Assembly (NCBI RefSeq): GCF_000017505.1
Contig: NC_009675.1
Coordinates: 2,480,001-2,544,000 of the forward strand
From: Anaeromyxobacter sp. Fw109-5
GTDB taxonomy: Bacteria > Myxococcota > Myxococcia > Myxococcales > Anaeromyxobacteraceae
Reading direction: 5' to 3'
DNA length: 64,000 bases
Shown here: piece after piece, positions 14,597 through 64,000 of the stretch
Position numbering within the stretch: position 1 is the stretch's first letter
Layout of the letters: every line of letters starts with the position of its first letter
Position numbers and translations under genes: made by a program
The notes under the pieces: generated by a model
The model's input: only the letters and a program-made list of their open reading frames with translations
The model's database searches: none
What the model was told of the DNA's origin: nothing

Positions 14597-17500
14597 TCAG
14601 CGGAACTCGCGCGCGCGGTTCCCGACCTGGGGCGCGAGCGCGAGCGGCGCGACCGAGCTCACCCGCACGTTCACGACCTCGCCGCTCCGCTCCACCCGGC
14701 CGCGCGCCAGGAGGAACGGGGCCGCACGCACGACCGGCCGGAACCGCTCGTACACGTCGGGCATCACGACGAGGTTGGCGATCCCGGTCTCGTCCTCGAG
14801 GCTCACGAAGACGATGCCCGCGGCGGTCTGAGGCCGCTGCCGGACGATCACGAGTCCCGCCACCTCGACGGGCGCGCGGTCGGGCAGGCGCGTCAGCTCC
14901 CGGGCGGTGCGGACGGCGCCGCCGGGGAGCGTGCCGCGCAGGACCGCCATCGGATGGCCGCGCACCGAGACGCTGGTCGTCGCGAAGTCCTCCGACACCT
15001 CCTCCGCCGCGCTCGCCGACGGGAGCGTCGCGTCCGGCTCGGCCGGGGTGACGCCCGCGAAGAGGTCGCCCCCGTCCGCCTCCATCGCGAGGCTGCGCCA
15101 GATCGCGCCGCGCCGGTCCGGCGCGAGCGATCCGAGCGCGTCGGCCTCGGCGAGCCGGACGAGCCAGGCCCGCGAGAGCCCCCCGCGCCGGACGAGGTCG
15201 CCCAGATCGGCGAGCGGGCGCGCCCGCCGCGCCGCCACGATGGCGTCGCCGACGTCCCGCGGCAGCCCGCGCACGAGGTGCAGTCCGAGCCGGATCGCAG
15301 GGGCTTCGCCAGCCCCCGCAGGCTCTCCAGGCGCCCTCCCCTCGAGGCCGCTCTCCCAGCCGCTCGCGCACACGTCGACCCCTCGCACCTCGACGCCGTG
15401 CCGCTTCGCGTCCTCGACGAGGGTGTGCGGCGCGTAGAAGCCCATGGGCTGGCTGTTCAGCAGGGCGCAGGCGAAGGCGGCGGGGTGATAGCGGCGGAGC
15501 CAGGCGGAGGCGTAGACGAGCAGGGCGAACGAGGCGGAGTGCGACTCGGGGAAGCCGTAGCCGGCGAACCCGAGGAGCTGGTGGAAGATGAGCTCGGCGT
15601 CCGCCGCGGAGATGCCGCGCTCGGCCATCCCGGCGAGCAGCCGCGCCTTCATCGCCGCGAGCTTCTCGTGCGATCGCCGGTGGGTCATGAGTCGACGCAG
15701 CTCGTCCGCCTCGCCCGGCGTGAACCCCGCGGCGACGACCGCGAGCCGCATGATCTGCTCCTGGAAGAGCGGCACGCCGAGGGTCTTCGCGAGGACCGGC
15801 TCGAGCGGCGGGTACGGGTAGCGGACCTGCTCCTTGCCGTCGCGCCGGCGCAGGTACGGGTGCACCATCCCCCCCTGGATCGGCCCGGGGCGCACGATCC
15901 CCACCGAGATCACGAGGTCGTAGAAGTTCCGCGGCTTGAGCCGCGGCGCGAGCGACATCTGCGCGCGCGACTCGATCTGGAACACGCCGATCGAGTCCGC
16001 CTTGCAGAGCATGTCGTAGACGGCGGGATCCTCGGGAGGGATGGTCGCGAGCGAATCCGGATGTGCGAGGCCAGCGGCGGTGGGGAGCGCCGGGGCCGGC
16101 CGGTGGGCGGCGAGGAGCGCGAGCGCGCGCGAGAGCGCCGTGAGCATGCCGAGCCCGAGGAGATCCACCTTGAGCAGGTCGAGGTCGGCGAGGTCGTCCT
16201 TGTCCCACTGCACGATGGTGCGCCCCGGCATCGCCGCGGGCTCGATGGGGACCGTCTCGCAGAGCGGCCGGCGGGTGATCACGAACCCGCCGACGTGGAT
16301 CGAGAGGTGACGCGGGAAGCCCTGCAGCTCGCGGGCGAGGTCGAGCGTCATGCGCACGCGGTCCGACGCCTCGACGTCGAGGCCCGCCTGGGCGAGGAGC
16401 TCCGGTCCGACCTCCGAGAGGTCCTCGTACATGCCGACGAGCTTGGCGAGCCGGTCGACCTGCGGGAGCGAGAGGCCGAGCGCCTTGCCCACGTCGCGGA
16501 GCGCGGACTTGCCGCGGTAGGTGATGACCTCGCAGACCATGCCCGCGCGGTCGCGTCCGTAGCGCTCGTAGACGTACTGGATCACCTCCTCGCGCCGCTC
16601 GTGCTCGAAGTCGATGTCGATGTCCGGCGGCTCTCCCCGCTCCGCCGAGATGAACCGCTCGAACAGCAGGCCCATCCGGACGGGATCGATCGCCGTGATG
16701 CCGAGCGCGTAGCAGACGGCGGAGTTCGCCGCGCTGCCGCGGCCCTGGCAGAGGATCCCGCGCGAGCGCGCGAAGCGGACGACGTCCCAGACGGTGAGGA
16801 AGTAGCTCGCGTACCCGAGCTGCTCGACGAGCTCGAGCTCCCGCGCGAGCTGCCGGGCGACGTCCTCCGGCGGCTCCCCGCCGTAGCGCCAGCGCGCCCC
16901 TTCGCGCACGAGCGCGCGGAGGAGCGCCATGCCCGAGACTCCGTCCGCTGGGTCGATCGGGGTCGAGGTCGTCCCTCGACTCCGCGCCTCCGCTGACGCG
17001 GAGTCGCTACGCTCGGGATGAGCGGCCTCTTTCCCCGGCGGTACCGGCGTCGCGGTCGGGGTCGCGGTCGGGGTCGCGGTCGGGGTCGCGGTCGGGGTCG
17101 CGGTCGGGGTCGGGGTCGCGGTCGGGGTCGCGGTCGGGGTCGCGGTCGGGGTCGCGGTCGGGGTCGCGGTCGGGGTCGGGGTCGTCCCTCGACTCCGCGC
17201 CTCCGCTGACGCGGAGTCGCTACGCTCGGGATGAGCGGCCATCGATTCCGCGGCAGGAGTTGGCGTCGTCCGCAGCGACCGGTTCGGCACCGCCGCGACG
17301 GCGCGAGCGTCCTGCGCCGGGCTCGACATCGCGGTCGCTGCGCCGCCCGCGAGGGTGGCGCGATCGACGACGACGGGCGGCAGCGGGTGCTCTCCCCGGA
17401 TCTCCTCCAGGCGGAACCGGCACCCGTCCGCGATCTCCGCGGCGGCCTCGAGTCCCTCGGGGAAGTCGCCCCACAGGCGCGCCATCTCCTCGGGGGCCTT

Positions 17501-18265
17501 GAGCGTCCGCTCCGCGTTCGGGAACAGGCGCCGGCCGGCCCGGTCGACCGTGGTGCCGTGGCGCACGCAGGTGAGGACGTCCTGCAGCACCTGCCGCCGC
17601 CGGTCGTGCGTGTGCACGTCGTTCGTGACCGCGATCCGGATGCCCAGCCGCCGGCCGATCGCGCGCGCGGCGAGCACGCGCGCCTCCTCGCCCGCCACCC
17701 GGTGACGGGCCACCGCCAGCGCGAGCCGCGCGCCGAAGATCTCCTTCAGGCGTGCCGCCGCGTCTCCGTCGGCGCCGGGGAAGAGCGCGAAGAGCCCGCG
17801 CGCCCGGGCGGCGACCGCCTCGAGCGCCACGGCGACCTCCTCCCGCGGCCGGCGGGGCGCGGCCCGCGCCGGGTCCTCCGCCCCGTGCGCGCGGGTCGCG
17901 AGGCGGCAGAGCCCCGCGTATCCCTCGCGATCCTGCGCGAGCAGCACGAGGCGCGCGGGCCGGCCGGTCGCGAGCCCGGTCACCACCAGCTCCGCGCCGA
18001 CCAGGAGCGGCAGCCCGCGCCGCTTCGCCTCCCCGTGCGCGCGGACGATCCCGTACAGCCCGTTCACGTCGGTGAGCGCGAGCGCCGAGAGCCCGAGCTC
18101 CGACGCGCGCGCGACGAGCTCCTCCGGATGGCTCGCGCCCTCCAGGAAGGAGAAGCAGGAGCGGCAGCGGAGCTCCGCGTAGCGCGGCACGCCCGGCCGG
18201 AGCGTCTTCCGCGCGCCGCCGGACGCGGCCGGTCCCGTGTCGATCCGCTGTCGCTCGTGGTTCAC
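14597..18265 (-). CDS. dnaE2: Error-prone DNA polymerase DnaE2/ImuC with in-frame repeat insertion
   Basis: DnaE2 (ImuC) is the catalytic subunit of the ImuA-ImuB-DnaE2 translesion mutasome. The product is 1222 residues, over 100 longer than usual. Domains: PHP near residues 25-230 (ELRCRSCFSFLEGASHPEEL); polymerase III alpha with catalytic aspartates in PDIDIDF (~547-553) and GRGSAANS; helix-hairpin-helix and a C-terminal OB fold. Between RGEHPLPPVVV and DGVSGMALLRALV lies a foreign stretch, about residues 320-437. It contains two copies of HPERSDSASAEARSRGTT flanking a run of Ala-Thr-Pro-Thr units, encoded by palindromic repeats and a minisatellite. The insertion precedes the palm, so function may survive. 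The GTG at 18265 is one base after the imuB stop. Confidence 0.95.
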   Translation of the reverse strand: MNHERQRIDTGPAASGGARKTLRPGVPRYAELRCRSCFSFLEGASHPEELVARASELGLSALALTDVNGLYGIVRAHGEAKRRGLPLLVGAELVVTGLATGRPARLVLLAQDREGYAGLCRLATRAHGAEDPARAAPRRPREEVAVALEAVAARARGLFALFPGADGDAAARLKEIFGARLALAVARHRVAGEEARVLAARAIGRRLGIRIAVTNDVHTHDRRRQVLQDVLTCVRHGTTVDRAGRRLFPNAERTLKAPEEMARLWGDFPEGLEAAAEIADGCRFRLEEIRGEHPLPPVVVDRATLAGGAATAMSSPAQDARAVAAVPNRSLRTTPTPAAESMAAHPERSDSASAEARSRGTTPTPTATPTATPTATPTATPTATPTPTATPTATPTATPTATPTATPVPPGKEAAHPERSDSASAEARSRGTTSTPIDPADGVSGMALLRALVREGARWRYGGEPPEDVARQLARELELVEQLGYASYFLTVWDVVRFARSRGILCQGRGSAANSAVCYALGITAIDPVRMGLLFERFISAERGEPPDIDIDFEHERREEVIQYVYERYGRDRAGMVCEVITYRGKSALRDVGKALGLSLPQVDRLAKLVGMYEDLSEVGPELLAQAGLDVEASDRVRMTLDLARELQGFPRHLSIHVGGFVITRRPLCETVPIEPAAMPGRTIVQWDKDDLADLDLLKVDLLGLGMLTALSRALALLAAHRPAPALPTAAGLAHPDSLATIPPEDPAVYDMLCKADSIGVFQIESRAQMSLAPRLKPRNFYDLVISVGIVRPGPIQGGMVHPYLRRRDGKEQVRYPYPPLEPVLAKTLGVPLFQEQIMRLAVVAAGFTPGEADELRRLMTHRRSHEKLAAMKARLLAGMAERGISAADAELIFHQLLGFAGYGFPESHSASFALLVYASAWLRRYHPAAFACALLNSQPMGFYAPHTLVEDAKRHGVEVRGVDVCASGWESGLEGRAPGEPAGAGEAPAIRLGLHLVRGLPRDVGDAIVAARRARPLADLGDLVRRGGLSRAWLVRLAEADALGSLAPDRRGAIWRSLAMEADGGDLFAGVTPAEPDATLPSASAAEEVSEDFATTSVSVRGHPMAVLRGTLPGGAVRTARELTRLPDRAPVEVAGLVIVRQRPQTAAGIVFVSLEDETGIANLVVMPDVYERFRPVVRAAPFLLARGRVERSGEVVNVRVSSVAPLALAPQVGNRAREFR
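16967..17027. repeat. 61-bp palindromic element, copy A (inside dnaE2)
   Basis: This copy is identical over 61 bp to the one at 17180-17240, in the same orientation. Its core is a perfect inverted repeat GACTCCGCG/CGCGGAGTC with a 10-base loop, so it would fold in DNA or RNA. The copies are 213 bp apart, exactly 71 codons, so both are read in the same frame and give the same peptide. It resembles REP-like intergenic palindromes but lies within a gene. Confidence 0.9.
17049..17179. repeat. 12-bp-unit minisatellite inside dnaE2
   Basis: The plus strand reads as tandem GGTCGCGGTCGG-type 12-mers, two runs of about five units split by one extra 6-bp GGGGTC. On the coding strand each unit specifies Ala-Thr-Pro-Thr. 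Because unit and interruption are multiples of three, gain or loss of units would change protein length without shifting frame. Confidence 0.9.
17180..17240. repeat. 61-bp palindromic element, copy B (inside dnaE2)
   Basis: This copy is identical to copy A at 16967-17027 and, with it, brackets the minisatellite. It encodes AAHPERSDSASAEARSRGTT-type sequence on the dnaE2 strand. The direct-repeat arrangement could allow deletion or expansion of the 213-bp unit by recombination without frameshift. Confidence 0.9.
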
Positions 18266-18266
18266 G

Positions 18267-19934
18267 TCAGTCGAAGTAGCCGTGCAGGTAGAGCCGTCCG
18301 TCCGCGGCGTCGCGGTACACCCAGCAATCGCCCAGCCCATCGAGCCGGACGCGGTAGTAGTCCCGGTCGAACGGCGCGGGCGCCCACCACTCGCCGCGCA
18401 GCCGCTCCGGCCCCTCCATCGCGATCACCGCCCGGGCGCGCCCCTCCACGCGGAGCGCGGTCACCCGCCCGCCCTCGCCCTCCGCGAGGATCGGCGCGGG
18501 GGGCTGCACGAGCCGGGTGGGCCGGGGCGGCGCCCCTTCGTCGCGCGCGGGGGCCGCGTCCCCGTCGCGGAGGAGGCTCCGCGGGCGCGCGGCCCCGGGC
18601 CGCGAGGCGGAGGGCTCGAACGGAACGGGCCGGTACGCCGCCTCGGGCCGGTAGCGCTCGACCGGCTCGGCGGCGAAGAGCGCGCCGTCGCCGAGCCGCC
18701 CGGTGAGCCGGGCGAGGACGTTCTCGAGGGCGGCGAGCGCCTCGGGCCGATCGTCGATCGCCAGCTGCTCGGCCGCCAACGGGGCGACCTCGATCGCTGC
18801 GAGCTGGACGGAGGTGACCGCACCGGGCAGCCGCAGCGCGAACACGTGCTCCTTCGCCGGGACGAGCCAGCGCGCGGCCGCCGCGGTGGGCTGGGCGAGC
18901 GGCACGATCACGCGCTCCTCCCCCCGCGGGTCGAGCTTCAGGACGATCTTGAGCCGCGTCGCGCCGAGGCCGCGGCCGGCGAGGCGCGCGGCGACGCGGT
19001 CGGCGAGCCGCTTCACCGCGAACAGGAGCGGCTCGGCGCTCTCGGCGGGCGCGTCGAGCTCGAGCGCCTCGACCGGCAACGTCTCCGGCGCGTAGGGCGA
19101 GAGCGGGGTGTCGTCCTCGCCGCGCGCGAGGCGCGCCGCCGCGACGCCGTCCGGCCCGAAGCGGTGCGCCAGCGTTCCGGCCGGCAGGCGCGCCAGCGCG
19201 CCCGCGTCCGCGACGCCGAGGCCACGGAGGCGCGCCGCCACCGCCGGCGCGAGCCCGAGCGCCTCGAGCGGCAGCGCGGCGAGGGCGCGTCCGGTCTCCT
19301 GCCGCGGCACCTGGACGATCCGCGCGGTCACGCCGTCGTGCGCGGGGAACGCGCCGTGCCGCGCGAGCGCGCCTGCCGCCGCGCGACCCGTCGCGATCGC
19401 CGCTTGCGCCACGTACCCCATCTCCGCCGCCGCCGCGATCGCCCGCTGCGCGAGGACCCGCTCGCCCGCGACGAGCGCGCGATCTCGCGCGGCCATCGTG
19501 CCGGTGATCACGGGAGCCGACGGAGCCGTTCCCCCGGCGGCGGTGGCCTCCGCGCGGGCCCCCTGCACGGCTCCGGCGAGGAGGTGCGCCGAGCTCGCGT
19601 CGAGGAGCACCACGTCCGGCGTGACCGGCTCGACCGCGGGGGCGAGCAGGAGCACCGCCTCCGCGACCGCGCGCAGCGCAGCGCGTTCCGCCGCGGGATC
19701 GAGCGCGACGGTGCGCAGCCGACCGCACGCGGCGAGCGCCGCGGATACCGTGGCGCCAGGGCGGACGCCGTCGGCGGCCGCGGCGGCGTCGCAGTGGACG
19801 ATCTTCCCGTCGGAGACGACCGCGAGCGGTCCCTCCCCCCCGTCGATGCGCAGCCTTCGCGCGCGCTGGAGCGGCAGCTCCGGCAGGCAGAGCGCGACGA
19901 CGCGCAGCCCGCTCGCCTCACGCCGCGTCGCCAT
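18267..19934 (-). CDS. imuB: ImuB, catalytically dead Y-family polymerase homologue
   Basis: ImuB is the adaptor of the SOS mutasome, bridging DnaE2, ImuA and the beta clamp. The 555-residue protein has a Y-family fold (VVALCLPELPLQRARRL at the N-terminus; HhH-like LPLEALGLAPAVAARLRGLG; little-finger region KIVLKLDPRGEERVIVPL). The acidic metal ligands of active Y-polymerases are absent: the first position reads LPELP instead of D-x-D, and the second LLDASSAHLL lacks the usual Glu. This is typical of ImuB. The gene overlaps imuA by 17 nt and ends one base before dnaE2, giving a three-gene operon. Confidence 0.9.
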   Translation of the reverse strand: MATRREASGLRVVALCLPELPLQRARRLRIDGGEGPLAVVSDGKIVHCDAAAAADGVRPGATVSAALAACGRLRTVALDPAAERAALRAVAEAVLLLAPAVEPVTPDVVLLDASSAHLLAGAVQGARAEATAAGGTAPSAPVITGTMAARDRALVAGERVLAQRAIAAAAEMGYVAQAAIATGRAAAGALARHGAFPAHDGVTARIVQVPRQETGRALAALPLEALGLAPAVAARLRGLGVADAGALARLPAGTLAHRFGPDGVAAARLARGEDDTPLSPYAPETLPVEALELDAPAESAEPLLFAVKRLADRVAARLAGRGLGATRLKIVLKLDPRGEERVIVPLAQPTAAAARWLVPAKEHVFALRLPGAVTSVQLAAIEVAPLAAEQLAIDDRPEALAALENVLARLTGRLGDGALFAAEPVERYRPEAAYRPVPFEPSASRPGAARPRSLLRDGDAAPARDEGAPPRPTRLVQPPAPILAEGEGGRVTALRVEGRARAVIAMEGPERLRGEWWAPAPFDRDYYRVRLDGLGDCWVYRDAADGRLYLHGYFD

Positions 19935-20658
19935 CTCCCACCTCCCCGCCGCCGCGCGCCTGCGGCCACCAGAGCCCGCGAGCGAGACCGCAGTGAGCCG
20001 CCGCGCCACTCCCCCATGCCGGCGCCTCCGCCGCTTGCCGGCGGCGACCGACGATCCGGCCGTCCTCTGCGCACAGCTCGAGGCGGACGGCCGCAGGGAC
20101 ACGGAGCCCCGTCCCGTTCTGCGCGGCGAGCCACAGCCCCACGGCGCCGCCCTTCTCCGCCGCCGCCTGGAGGCGGCGCGCCGCGGCGTCCGCGCCGCGC
20201 ACTGTGCGCGCCATCGGCACGTCGATCGCCACCGCGTCGAACGCACCCGACCCGAGGAGCGCCTCCGCGGCCCACAGGGCGACGAGCGCCGGGTCGCGCT
20301 CCGGGCCTCCACCGTGCGCCCGGGGCGGCGGCCGTACGACGAGGAGCCTGGAGAGCTCGACTCCGAGCGCCGCCGCGGCGGGCGGGTACAGCTCCCCTCG
20401 CCCATCGACGTAGGCGGCGAGGGCTCCTGGGCCGAGCGCAGCGAAGAGCGCCAGCGCGATCGCAGTCTTGCCGCTCGCCGGCCCTCCCGCGAGCTCGGTG
20501 AGCGCCCCACGCCGAAAACCGCCGTCTGGCAGCAAGGTGTCGATCTCCGCCCGGCCGCACGCCAGCACCCCTTCCCGCCGGGAGGGGCGCCGCTCGATGC
20601 GGCGGATCTCGTCGCGCAGCCGCGCGACCACCCGTTGACGCTCCGCCCCCGCCGACAT
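19918..20658 (-). CDS. imuA: ImuA, RecA-like mutasome protein
   Basis: This 246-residue protein has a RecA/SulA-like fold: VLACGRAEIDTLLPDGGFRRG leads into a Walker A loop GGPASGKTA, then AAYVDGRGELYPPAAAALGV, as in RecA-related ImuA. ImuA is needed with ImuB and DnaE2 for SOS mutagenesis, and is usually LexA-controlled. The ATG at 20658 follows GGAGG. It is the first gene of imuA-imuB-dnaE2, with a LexA-type box in its promoter. The C-terminus is Gly-rich and overlaps imuB. Confidence 0.88.
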   Translation of the reverse strand: MSAGAERQRVVARLRDEIRRIERRPSRREGVLACGRAEIDTLLPDGGFRRGALTELAGGPASGKTAIALALFAALGPGALAAYVDGRGELYPPAAAALGVELSRLLVVRPPPRAHGGGPERDPALVALWAAEALLGSGAFDAVAIDVPMARTVRGADAAARRLQAAAEKGGAVGLWLAAQNGTGLRVPAAVRLELCAEDGRIVGRRRQAAEAPAWGSGAAAHCGLARGLWWPQARGGGEVGDGDAA

Positions 20659-20824: not shown

Positions 20825-21481
20825 ATGAAGCATTTCGGATGGGTCGCGGGTCTCGGAGTCGCGGGTCTTCTCGTCGCGGGCATCCCCGCGCAGGCTCAGT
20901 CCGGCTCGACGACCGGCAGCCAGTCGACCGAAGATCAGATGAAGGGCTCCGGCTCCACGACGTCGCAGGGCACCGGCTCGGCCGGCTCCTCGACGATGGG
21001 CTCGGGCTCGGCCACCGGGTCGAGCACGGGGATGGAGAGCAGCAAGAACGAGCTCACCGGCACGGTCCAGAAGTTCGACCGCGAGACGAAGGAGCTCACC
21101 CTCGCGAACAGCGACAAGACGCTCAAGGTGAGCGAGAGCACCACCGTGATGAAGGACGGCCAGGCCGGCACCCTCAGCGACATCAAGGAGGGCGAGCAGG
21201 TCCGCGCGAGCTTCTCCGGCTCGGGTGACACGCTGCAGGTGAGCCAGATCGAGGTGATGACCGCGGGCAGCACCGGCACGTCGGGCATGGGGACGGGCTC
21301 CACCGGCACCACGACGCCGCCGTCCGACACCGGGACCGGCTCCACGGGCACCACCACGACGCCGCCGTCCGACACCGGCACCGGCTCCACGGGCACCACC
21401 ACGACGCCGCCGTCCGATACCGGGACCACGCATGACAGCGGCTCGAGCGGCGCGACCCCGCCTCCGAGCAAGGGTTACTAG
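20825..21481 (+). CDS. Secreted Gly/Ser/Thr-rich protein with C-terminal repeats
   Basis: The 218-residue product starts with a signal peptide (MKHFGWVAGLGVAGLLVAGI, cleavage likely after AQA). It then has a Ser/Gly/Thr-rich linker, a small folded domain (NELTGTVQKFDRETKELTLA ... VSQIEVMTAG, resembling DUF5666-type beta barrels) and a C-terminal tail of three repeats, GTGSTGTTTTPPSDT. A strong GGAGGG site precedes the ATG and a textbook terminator follows, so it is probably well expressed as a single gene. The function is unknown; a periplasmic or surface role is inferred from the signal peptide and disordered tail. Confidence 0.75.
   Translation: MKHFGWVAGLGVAGLLVAGIPAQAQSGSTTGSQSTEDQMKGSGSTTSQGTGSAGSSTMGSGSATGSSTGMESSKNELTGTVQKFDRETKELTLANSDKTLKVSESTTVMKDGQAGTLSDIKEGEQVRASFSGSGDTLQVSQIEVMTAGSTGTSGMGTGSTGTTTPPSDTGTGSTGTTTTPPSDTGTGSTGTTTTPPSDTGTTHDSGSSGATPPPSKGY
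21290..21420 (+). repeat. 45-bp tandem repeats in the secreted-protein gene
   Basis: Three near-identical in-frame units (the first 42 bp, then two of 45 bp at about 21331-21375 and 21376-21420) encode GTGSTGTTTTPPSDT. The first unit lacks one Thr codon. The sequences differ at only a few positions, so copy-number change is plausible. Confidence 0.85.
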
Positions 21482-59621: not shown

Positions 59622-62600
59622 ATGTCCAAGAACGAGACGATCCCGACGCGCCGGCGTCGCCCCGCACCCCCGTCGGACGGGCCCGAGCGCGACGCGGCAG
59701 CCGCCGGCGCGCCGGATCGCGCCTGGGCCGGCCGGAGCCCGGGCGGCCGAGGTGGCGTGACGGGCGATGGCGCGAGGAGCAGGCGCCGCGGCGGCCCCCC
59801 GCCTGGCGAGGCCGTGGTCTCCGGCCCCGTTCCGCGGGCCGCCCGTGACGGCGCCGCCGCTCGCGAGGGCCTCGACGGCTTCACGGAGTGGGACCTCCTC
59901 TCGCGCGCGAGCCAGGACGAGGTGGACCAGCTCGCCGACGTCCTCAAGGCGGTGAAGGCGGGCGACTTCTCGGTCCGCCTCCCCTATCGGCGCGACGGCA
60001 TCCTCTCGCGCGTCGGCGAGATCCTGAACGACATCCTCCAGCTCAACGAGCACGTCTCCGTCGAGCTCCTGCGCGTCGCGAAGGTCGTCGGCCAGGAGGG
60101 AAAGATGACCGAGCGCGCCTCGGTGGGTCCGGCGAAGGGCGCCTGGGCCGCCGGCATGAGCGCGGTGAACCAGCTCATCGGCGATCTCGTCGCGCCCACC
60201 AACGAGGTCGCTCGCGTCATCACGGCGGTCGCGAAGGGCGACCTCTCCCAGAAGATGTCCCTCGACATCGAGGGCCGTCCGGTCCGCGGCGAGTTCCTCC
60301 GCATCGGCACGACCGTGAACTCGATGGTCGATCAGCTGAACTCCTTCGCGGCGGAGGTGACGCGCGTCGCGAAGGAGGTGGGCAACGAGGGGAAGCTGGG
60401 CGGCCAGGCCGACGTGAAGGGCGTCAGCGGCACCTGGAAGGACCTCACCGACAACGTGAACGGCCTCGCCGCGAACCTGACGGCGCAGGTGCGGAACATC
60501 GCCAAGGTGACGACCGCCGTCGCCAAGGGCGACCTCTCGCAGAAGATCACCGTCGACGCGCGGGGCGAGATCCTCGAGCTCAAGAACACCATCAACGTGA
60601 TGGTCGATCAGCTCCAGTCCTTCGCGGCGGAGGTGACGCGCGTCGCGAAGGAGGTGGGCAACGAGGGGAAGCTGGGCGGCCAGGCCGACGTGAAGGGCGT
60701 CAGCGGCACCTGGAAGGACCTCACCGACAACGTGAACGGCCTCGCCGCGAACCTGACGGCGCAGGTGCGGAACATCGCCAAGGTCACGACCGCGGTCGCG
60801 AACGGCGACCTCTCGCAGAAGATCACCGTCGACGCGCGGGGCGAGATCTACGAGCTGAAGAACACCATCAACACGATGGTCGACACGCTGCGCTCCTTCG
60901 CGGCGGAGGTGACGCGCGTCGCCAAGGAGGTCGGCACGGAGGGCAAGCTCGGCGGCCAGGCCGACGTGAAGGGCGTCGCCGGCACCTGGAAGGACCTCAC
61001 CGACAACGTGAACGGCCTCGCGGCGAACCTCACCGCGCAGGTGCGCAACATCGCCAAGGTCACGACCGCGGTCGCGAACGGCGACCTCTCGCAGAAGATC
61101 ACCGTCGACGCGCGGGGCGAGATCTACGAGCTGAAGAACACCATCAACACGATGGTCGACACGCTGCGCTCCTTCGCGGCGGAGGTGACGCGCGTCGCCA
61201 AGGAGGTCGGCACGGAGGGCAAGCTCGGCGGCCAGGCCGACGTGAAGGGCGTCGCCGGCACCTGGAAGGACCTCACCGACAACGTGAACACGATGGCGTC
61301 GAACCTGACCGTCCAGCTGCGCGACGTGTCGAAGGTCGCGATCGCGATCGCCCACGGCGATCTGACGCAGAAGATCACCGTCGACGTGAAGGGGGAGATC
61401 CTCCAGATCAAGGACGTCATCAACAAGATGGTCGACCAGCTGAACTCGTTCGCCGCGGAGGTGACGCGCGTCGCGCGCGAGGTCGGCACGGAGGGCAAGC
61501 TCGGGGGCCAGGCGGAGGTGCGCGGCGTCAGCGGCACCTGGAAGGACCTCACCGACAACGTGAACGCGATGGCGTCCAACCTGACCGTCCAGCTGCGCGA
61601 CGTGTCCAAGGTGGCGACCGCCATCGCGAACGGGGATCTCGGCCAGAAGATCACGGTCGACGTGAAGGGGGAGATCCTCCAGATCAAGGACGTCATCAAC
61701 AAGATGGTCGACCAGCTGAACTCGTTCGCCGCGGAGGTCACCCGCGTCGCGAAGGAGGTCGGCACGGAGGGCAAGCTCGGCGGCCAGGCCGAGGTGCGCG
61801 GTGTCAGCGGCACCTGGAAGGACCTCACCGACAACGTGAACGGCCTCGCGGCGAACCTCACCGCGCAGGTGCGGAACATCGCCAAGGTGACGACCGCGGT
61901 CGCGAACGGCGACCTCTCGCAGAAGATCACCGTCGACGCGCGCGGGGAGATCTTCGAGCTGAAGACCACCATCAACACCATGGTCGATCAGCTCCGTTCG
62001 TTCGCCGCGGAGGTGACCCGCGTCGCGAAGGAGGTCGGCACGGAGGGGAAGCTCGGCGGCCAGGCCGAGGTGCGCGGCGTCAGCGGCACCTGGAAGGACC
62101 TCACCGACAACGTGAACGGCCTCGCCGCGAACCTGACCACCCAGGTGCGCAACATCGCCAAGGTGACGACCGCCGTCGCGAAGGGCGATCTGTCCCAGAA
62201 GATCACCGTCGAGGCGAAGGGCGAGATCCTCGAGCTGAAGAACACCATCAACGTGATGGTGGACCAGCTGAACTCGTTCGCCGCGGAGGTGACCCGCGTC
62301 GCGAAGGAGGTCGGCACGGAGGGCAAGCTCGGCGGCCAGGCCGAGGTGAGCGGCGTCAGCGGCACGTGGAAGGACCTCACCGACAACGTGAACGCGATGG
62401 CCTCCAACCTGACCGTCCAGCTGCGGGACGTGTCCAAGGTGGCGACCGCGATCGCCAACGGAGACCTCACCCAGAAGATCACGGTCGACGTGAAGGGGGA
62501 GATCCTCCAGATCAAGGACGTCATCAACAAGATGGTCGACCAGCTGAACTCGTTCGCCGCGGAGGTGACGCGCGTCGCGCGCGAGGTCGGCACGGAGGGG

Positions 62601-64000
62601 AAGCTGGGCGGTCAGGCGAACGTGCGCGGCGTCAGCGGCACGTGGAAGGACCTCACCGACAACGTGAACTTCATGGCCTCGAACCTCACCACCCAGGTGC
62701 GGGGCATCGTGAAGGTCGTCACCGCCATCGCGAACGGCGACCTGTCGCAGAAGTTCGTGCTCGAGGCGAAGGGCGAGGTGGCCGCCCTCGCCGAGACCAT
62801 CAACTCGATGACCGACACCCTCCGCACCTTCGCGGATCAGGTGTCGACGGTGGCGCGCGAGGTCGGCGTGGAGGGCAAGCTGGGCGCGCAGGCGCGGGTG
62901 CCGGGCGTCGCCGGCACGTGGAAGGACCTCACCGACAACGTGAACTTCATGGCCTCGAACCTGACCACGCAGGTGCGCGGCATCGTGAAGGTCGTGACGG
63001 CGGTGGCGAACGGCGACCTGTCGCAGAAGTTCGTGCTCGAGGCGAAGGGCGAGGTGGCCGCCCTCGCCGAGACCATCAACTCGATGACCGACACCCTCCG
63101 CATCTTCGCGGACGAGGTGACCGGGGTCGCGCGAGAGGTCGGCATCGAGGGGAAGCTCGGCGGTCAGGCGAAGGTGCCCGGCGCCGCGGGCACCTGGCGC
63201 GACCTCACGGACAACGTGAACCAGCTCGCCGGGAACCTCACCTCGCAGGTGCGCGCCATCGCGGAGGTCTCGACGGCGGTGACGAAGGGCGATCTCACCC
63301 GCTCCATCACGGTCGAGGCGCAGGGCGAGGTGGCCGCCCTGAAGGACAACATCAACCAGATGATCTCCACCCTGAAGGAGACGACGCAGAAGAACACCGA
63401 GCAGGACTGGCTCAAGACGAACCTCGCGAACTTCTCCAACATGATGCAGGGGCAGCGGAACATCGTCTCCGTGGCCCAGGCGATCATCTCGAAGCTCACG
63501 CCGCTCGTGAACGCCGCGCACGGCGCCTTCTTCCTGATGGACCGCGACGACGAGAGCGGCGCTCCGTCCCTGAACCTCATCGCGAGCTACGGCTTCGGCG
63601 GCAGGAAGACCCTCGCGTCCTCGTACCGCCTGAAGGAGACGCTCATCGGGCAGTGCGCGTTCGAGAAGCAGCGCATCCTGCTCTCGCATGTGCCGGCGGA
63701 CTTCATCTACATCGCGACCGGGATGGGGGAGGCGCCGCCGCGCTCCGTGGTGGTCCTGCCGGTGCTGTTCGAGGGCGAGACGAAGGCGGTGATCGAGCTC
63801 GCCGCGTTCAAGGAGTTCAGCCCGAACCACCTGGCCTTCTTCGATCAGCTCATGGAGAACGTCGGCGTCATCCTCAACATGATCGGCTCGAGCATGCGGA
63901 CCGAGGAGCTCCTGCAGGAGCTGAAGCGGTCCAACGCCGAGCTCGAGGCGCAGGCGGGCGAGCTGAACGAGAAGGCCAAGCTGCTCGAGCAGAAGAACAG
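59622..64000 (+). CDS. Giant multi-HAMP, GAF-containing signalling protein (probable hybrid kinase), C-terminus beyond window
   Basis: The visible 1459 residues begin [20 protein letters not shown] and have a disordered, basic N-terminus of about 85 residues, then a first divergent HAMP-like unit. Eleven tandem 92-residue HAMP modules follow, each with [16 protein letters not shown] and GDLSQKI-type sequence. After them come a GAF domain (about residues 1270-1420; [36 protein letters not shown]) and a coiled coil ([20 protein letters not shown]). This order matches group III hybrid histidine kinases of fungi and their bacterial relatives, so HisKA, ATPase and receiver domains are expected past 64000. 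No transmembrane helix is seen. An AGGA-containing site precedes the ATG. Confidence 0.9.
60324..63359 (+). repeat. Eleven exact-length 276-bp tandem modules encoding HAMP domains
   Basis: Modules start at 60324 and every 276 bp to 63084, ending at 63359 with no length variation (3036 = 11 x 276). A landmark codon for Met (ATG at 60324, 60600 and so on to 63360) marks the period. Bases 60771-61013 are identical to 61047-61289 (243 bp), while the last three modules (from about 62530) are the most divergent. Confidence 0.95.

Follow-up and report, generated by a model that had tools for sequence, protein, structure and literature searches.

The linker of a predicted error-prone DNA polymerase, ImuC/DnaE2, carries two identical 61-bp copies of a GTAG-tagged, REP-like repeat, and GTAG-strand copies of the same repeat are read in a single frame in 17 genes of this genome. 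What is new is the in-frame family, the reading of its copies in a single frame throughout these genes, and its partnership with hexanucleotide arrays. The scenario that we favor, and consider likely as a whole, is that a REP-like element inserted into the polymerase linker, that a composite of element and array was then duplicated in tandem and that the insert has persisted after filtering by reading frame. Bacterial "junk" repeats here act as ready-made protein linkers.

The element pair and its host gene

The window, that is, the whole 64,000-nt stretch analysed, corresponds to positions 2,480,001-2,544,000 of one 5,277,990-bp contig and includes an operon in which imuA and imuB precede imuC (Table 1). 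The assignment of the host gene as ImuC/DnaE2 is based on this operon and on the following: (i) the predicted product, of which HPERSDSASAEAR is a stretch, matches the NCBIfam model NF004225 ('error-prone DNA polymerase') with 1282 bits (cut-off 939), the reading frame being unbroken through both repeats, and (ii) the catalytic motifs are in place, the PDIDIDFE segment being kept in our ImuC alignment (A1) with its P, D and I/D residues invariant. The protein (P0001) has a PHP domain (residues 36-177), DNA_pol3_alpha (453-709), a finger domain (742-889), HHH_6 and OB. From the intact frame and the intact motifs we infer that the polymerase would work normally with its insert. Elsewhere in the window there is a tandem array at 60318-63296 (276-bp unit, 10.8 copies, 86% matches), and a small ORF contains a tandem repeat of 45 bp (21290-21427), read as TGSTGTTTTPPSDTG repeats.

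Table 1. Positions, in window coordinates, of the imu genes and of the parts of the imuC insert
Feature	Position	Strand	Basis or remark
imuC/dnaE2, error-prone DNA polymerase	14597..18340	-	ORF; putative start at 18340, the first ATG in frame
imuB, Y-family polymerase-like	18267..19931	-	PF00817, 31.5 bits (cut-off 23.2)
imuA, RecA-like	19918..20658	-	PF00154, 41.3 bits (cut-off 27)
Linker between PHP domain and polymerase core, holding the insert (P0001 residues 302-445)	16946..17377	-	Homology gap, hypervariability, low pLDDT
REP-like element copy 1, 61 bp, read HPERSDSASAEARSRGTT	16967..17027	-	
Copy 1 stem-loop, 22 nt (9-bp stem with one mismatch, 4-nt loop)	16985..17006	-	Register of 34 nine-bp-class copies
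Copy 1 GTAG tetranucleotide, hairpin foot	17007..17010	-	GTAG in 66/80 copies
20-bp flank, read within PVPPGKEAA	17028..17047	-	Common to the closest other copies, in PD40/Omp85-type gene L016
(GGTCGN)n array, read (Thr-Pro/Thr-Ala)n = (PT/AT)n	17045..17184	-	Tandem Repeats Finder and translation
REP-like element copy 2, 61 bp, same frame, identical to copy 1	17180..17240	-	
Copy 2 stem-loop, 22 nt	17198..17219	-	
Copy 2 GTAG tetranucleotide	17220..17223	-	

An earlier note on this DNA had described two identical 61-bp copies at these positions, read in frame as a peptide of the SOS mutasome polymerase and lying between its PHP region and its palm. All of this holds: the copies agree at 61/61 positions, the peptide is read on the minus strand in an open frame of a gene that matches the ImuC model, and the insert sits in the linker that separates the PHP domain from the polymerase domain. 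The perfect inverted repeat, given there as 9 bp, is in fact 10 bp (CGACTCCGCG/CGCGGAGTCG), and the (GGTCGN)n array between the copies had been missed. The copies are in direct orientation with a spacing of 213 bp (3 x 71), and both single strands of the element fold better than shuffled sequences (z -3.4 and -2.6). No target-site duplication could be defined by alignment at the insert because its boundaries fall in repeats.

A repeat family read in one frame

The element is multicopy, with both intergenic and intragenic copies, which answers a question that the earlier note had raised for a genome search. The core CTACGCTCGGGATGA gave 105 matches in the genome with up to two mismatches, the reversed control giving 7; with one mismatch the two figures were 65 and 0. 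In all, 80 copies could be extracted with both ends. On the coding strand the layout is GGCCGS-TCATCCCGAGC-GTAG-stem-loop-CGNAGTCGAGGGAC, and most copies that depart from GTAG have near variants of it. The two arms of the stem are 91% paired even though the 5' arm takes 51 different forms among 78, whereas re-dealing the arms among copies of the same length gave 73% pairing and a maximum of 80% in 1000 trials. In the nine-bp class whole pairs have been replaced at stem positions 2, 3, 5 and 6 (e.g. G-C to T-A and T-A to G-C). REPs are typically 20-40 bp in length and are mostly intergenic, between convergent or unidirectional genes. We call the present element REP-like because its conservation extends over about 58 bp, from GGCCG to GAGGGAC, the stem-loop and GTAG together making up 26 nt. 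Inverted pairs of the element occur in this genome (G000), e.g. at 428072/428130, and one such pair (L004; G000:C1:515518 and 515576) lies directly upstream of recA. We also noted 56-nt variants (L040, L041, L045 and L053) whose hairpin contains CCTGAGCCTGGCGAAGG-type sequence and which resemble one repeat nested in another.

ORFs running through the copies, together with Pfam and NCBIfam matches, place GTAG-strand copies in 17 genes, all in frame +0 (HPERS...SRGT). Besides ImuC, the hosts are a DUF4388-DnaJ protein (L001), an HrpB helicase (L010), an ABC ATPase-permease fusion (L012), an acyltransferase (L013), a ClpA/ClpB-type ATPase (L015), a PD40-Omp85 protein (L016), a CheA-like kinase (L020), TPR proteins (L021 and L023), a Ser/Thr kinase (L024), a response-regulator DUF4388 protein (L025), a zinc-ribbon TPR protein (L027), a DUF4175 protein (L028), RecG (L045), DnaX (L056) and an Lhr-type helicase (L064). 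The insertions fall outside Pfam domains in every host except the DUF4175 protein, and nearly all lie in linkers, between domains or at a terminus. A copy has on average about four open frames out of six, and the product of 1/open frames over 16 genes is 2e-10, a figure that ignores possible common descent of composite units; the 17 hosts are in fact incompletely independent, as ImuC and the PD40 gene have flanks in common. Three shorter copies that run the other way use frame -1 (second copies in the CheA and DUF4175 genes and one in a putative integrase-like ORF, L032), and the frame rule is therefore limited to the GTAG strand. A codon-score classifier missed the long-array genes L016, L021, L023, L024 and L027, which were settled by their ORFs and, for L016, L021 and L027, also by orthologues; the single '+1' in-frame call of this classifier (L050) was judged to be noise. 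In L016 and L024 a related short repeat (TTCGACAGGCTCAGGG type), read as RPEPVEGRA, is found in frame near the HPERS elements.

The ImuC pair is best read as a single element-plus-array unit duplicated in tandem. The earlier note had spoken of two inserted elements; duplication of one composite is simpler, and the same layout is present in five other genes (L012, L015, L016, L021 and L025). Two independent transposition events, instead of an insertion followed by tandem duplication, would fit with the differing outer flanks of the two copies and with genes elsewhere that REPs have entered twice (Di Nocera et al. 2013, PMC3733652). We nevertheless think such an origin unlikely, since the copies are fully identical when most family members are only 80-93% identical to them, and since their shared orientation and their spacing are of the kind found in the tandem composites of the five other genes. 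Seven in-gene copy spacings, ranging from 81 to 381 bp, are all multiples of 3. The 20 bp beside the element (PGKEAA) that ImuC and the PD40 gene have in common point to exchange between those loci.

Hexamers occurred within 100 nt of 28 of the 34 copies of the 49-nt class as compared with 0.35% of background 100-nt windows. That hexamer arrays are simply everywhere in coding linkers was rejected: only 4 arrays of at least four perfect units were found in 464 kb of unselected sequence plus the window, and the three outside the window are not clearly inside genes. That the element makes the hexamers was rejected as well. Overlapping matches to (GGTCGN)5 with one mismatch numbered 1493 in this genome, 1293 in G003 and 104 in G006, with zero in G001, G002 and G005 (controls gave zero in the genomes counted), while element cores with one mismatch numbered 65 here, 68 in G001, 72 in G002, 30 in G005, 13 in G003 and 2 in G006. 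Thus G001, G002 and G005 have 30-72 cores and no arrays, and G006, G009 and G011 have arrays and 0-2 cores. Because the counts are uncoupled across genomes, we take the element and the array to be independent in origin.

The phase of the arrays gives a direct view of selection on such insertions. With 'coding' defined without regard to phase, though requiring an open frame through the element, the Thr-X phase (phase 0) was found in 30 of 30 coding flanks versus 9 of 23 non-coding ones (Fisher, 3e-7) and, counted per locus, in 14/14 versus 6/16 (3e-4). Such a contrast, with coding flanks all in phase and non-coding flanks mixed, is predicted if the frame is under selection, and we conclude that reading-frame selection filters the insertions. 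The uniform frame might instead be built into the junction of element and array, either as a target-site phase or through inheritance of the composite; several non-coding copies with a GGATCTCCTGAGGCCGG tail are also in phase 0, and uniformity may be partly inherited with the composite. The mixture at non-coding junctions makes this explanation rather improbable, and it is further disfavored by the CheA and DnaX copies, which are free of arrays and likewise in frame +0.

Origin and persistence of the insert

ImuC-type loci were found with a 183-aa query in most of 40 related genomes, and HPERS was present in none of the 29 loci read from other genomes. A wider set comprised 110 ImuC loci, 81 of which had linkers measurable with one fixed anchor pair. 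Most of these linkers are 80-100 residues; that of the window is 229 residues by the same anchors and is the sole HPERS carrier among the 81. The region is hypervariable, being compact in other families and, in several species of the genus, rich in Ala and Pro. The sister genomes G003 and G006 have (TP/TS/TA)n there, and the DNA alignment with G006 has a CGACCN array in the same place with the element absent. The homology of ImuC to solved DnaE alpha subunits extends to residue 301 and is picked up again at about 441-476, and the insert lies in this gap. An AF2 model of a 461-residue ImuC segment has pLDDT below 50 at residues 126-166 and over most of 180-248, and this low confidence agrees with a disordered linker. 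Because HPERS is absent from all ImuC orthologues examined, the ImuC element is, on sequence comparison, a lineage-specific in-frame insertion.

Similar results were obtained for 13 other host genes compared with G003, G006 and G002 (all the remaining hosts but L013, L023 and L024): the orthologues are without the element and their linkers vary. The exception is the ClpA-like gene (L015, G000:C1:1664681 and 1664771; L131), for which G003 retains a diverged HPERS copy (RPERSVSAAADTRSRGT); this is the only shared insertion of the 13, and it predates the split from G003. Since the linkers of close relatives are element-free, tolerance of the insert and any effect on SOS mutagenesis are testable with natural variants. 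Elsewhere in the genus the element behaves like an ordinary REP, 17 of 20 sampled loci in G002 lying between convergent coding frames. Its spread is patchy; G025 and G030, which belong to other families of the order, have 148 and 132 cores (one mismatch), with 0-3 in most genomes between.

We propose that the 61-bp unit belongs to a mobile, REP-like repeat of the GTAG type and would have entered a pre-existing unstructured imuC linker that was already partly encoded by (GGTCGN)n, and would have done so in this lineage only. Tandem duplication of the element-plus-array composite would then have produced the two identical copies with an array between them. The insert would persist because its frame is the one to give a hydrophilic, stop-free linker peptide, and events would have taken the same course in no fewer than 16 further genes. 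As a candidate mobiliser we suggest a transposase of RAYT-like type (Y1, HUH) that acts on the hairpin, and recombination between hexamer arrays could account for both the tandem duplication and the spread of composites. A RAYT gene flanked by the same repeat is the usual, not a universal, associate of REPs. Among 30 Y1_Tnp loci in this genome and nine others we found no Y1/RAYT-type gene flanked by the element (there was one marginal, unrelated match), and mobilisation is therefore something that we infer. The only RAYT-like gene found here (L031:1402-2349, G000:C1 near 3,811,190) scores 54.7 bits with the REP-associated tyrosine transposase model, for which the cut-off is 80. The repeats downstream of this gene (CGGACCGGTTACTCTCGGCGGGGCGCC) are of a different type and may form a second REP family.

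The ImuC insert is probably neutral. It could be argued that the element has been retained because the linker is useful or because the hairpin regulates the SOS polymerase, acting for example on imuC translation or mRNA decay, given that replication and repair hosts recur (ImuC, RecG, DnaX and the Lhr-type helicase) as they do for other REPs (PMC3733652); we regard this as quite improbable, however, as a protein kinase, CheA, an ABC transporter and TPR proteins are among the hosts too, and related species manage without the element. Least credible of all is that ImuC in this group has long had the element as a conserved domain or a functional linker peptide, for although the linker is long family-wide and (TP/TS/TA)n is shared with the sisters G003 and G006, this reading is ruled out for the element itself by orthologues without it, and the same element is present in 16 unrelated genes and outside genes. 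The earlier note had likewise preferred an inserted element to an old domain, and the segment common to all orthologues that it had named as the mark of a domain was looked for and is not there.

Going beyond the neutral insertion that we favor, one might imagine that the (GGTCGN)n array and the HPERS element make up a self-spreading, frame-neutral linker module, in which arrays encoding Thr-X linkers provide homologous landing sites in many genes and recombination between arrays carries the cassette from linker to linker. We put this forward tentatively, as possible but doubtful; if true, it would be a bacterial counterpart of repeat-driven exon shuffling.

Comparison with known repeats

There is precedent for REPs in coding sequence. 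GTAG and CGTC REPs occur inside genes of several species, many of them replication and repair genes (Di Nocera et al. 2013, PMC3733652). Because that study reports in-frame REPs and names DnaE2 among the REP-tagged proteins, the suggestion in the earlier note, which knew of no described case in an ImuC/DnaE2 polymerase, and with it any claim to a first case in DnaE2, fails. A text search of the same paper gave no mention of Myxobacteria, and our literature search found no paper on the element in Anaeromyxobacter.

Of the features expected of GTAG-type REPs we found the GTAG-tagged stem-loop, high copy number, an intergenic convergent setting (in G002) and inverted pairs; a flanked RAYT gene was not among them. 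Further points of likeness to the GTAG REPs (PMC3733652) are alternative complementary residues in the stem, copies in the tens to hundreds, arrangement in pairs or tandem groups, and in-frame genic copies, many in replication and repair genes. The present element differs from them in its longer unit of about 58 bp, in its use of one frame in 17 genes and in the Thr-X hexanucleotide array beside its coding copies, and also from those with the usual RAYT in that none flanked by the element was found here. Similarly, it resembles the REPs and REPINs mobilised by RAYT/TnpA-REP (PMC2817692, PMC3116915, PMC8266576) in having a hairpin with GTAG, inverted pairs and a patchy distribution among close relatives, but the transposase gene expected beside the same repeat was not found.

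The classic in-frame palindromes are the Rickettsia palindromic elements, or RPE (Ogata et al. 2000, 2002; reviewed in PMC10969869 and PMC2229807). Like these, the element described here is a multicopy palindrome that lies in frame in unrelated genes, 17 in this case, and encodes a common peptide. Unlike RPE, which are 105-150 bp and found in Rickettsia, it is shorter, GC-rich and GTAG-tagged; since host and size set the two apart, we have not filed it as an RPE. What the present family adds is that outside Rickettsia, in a free-living GC-rich bacterium, one small palindromic repeat has become coding sequence in many unrelated proteins, in a single frame.
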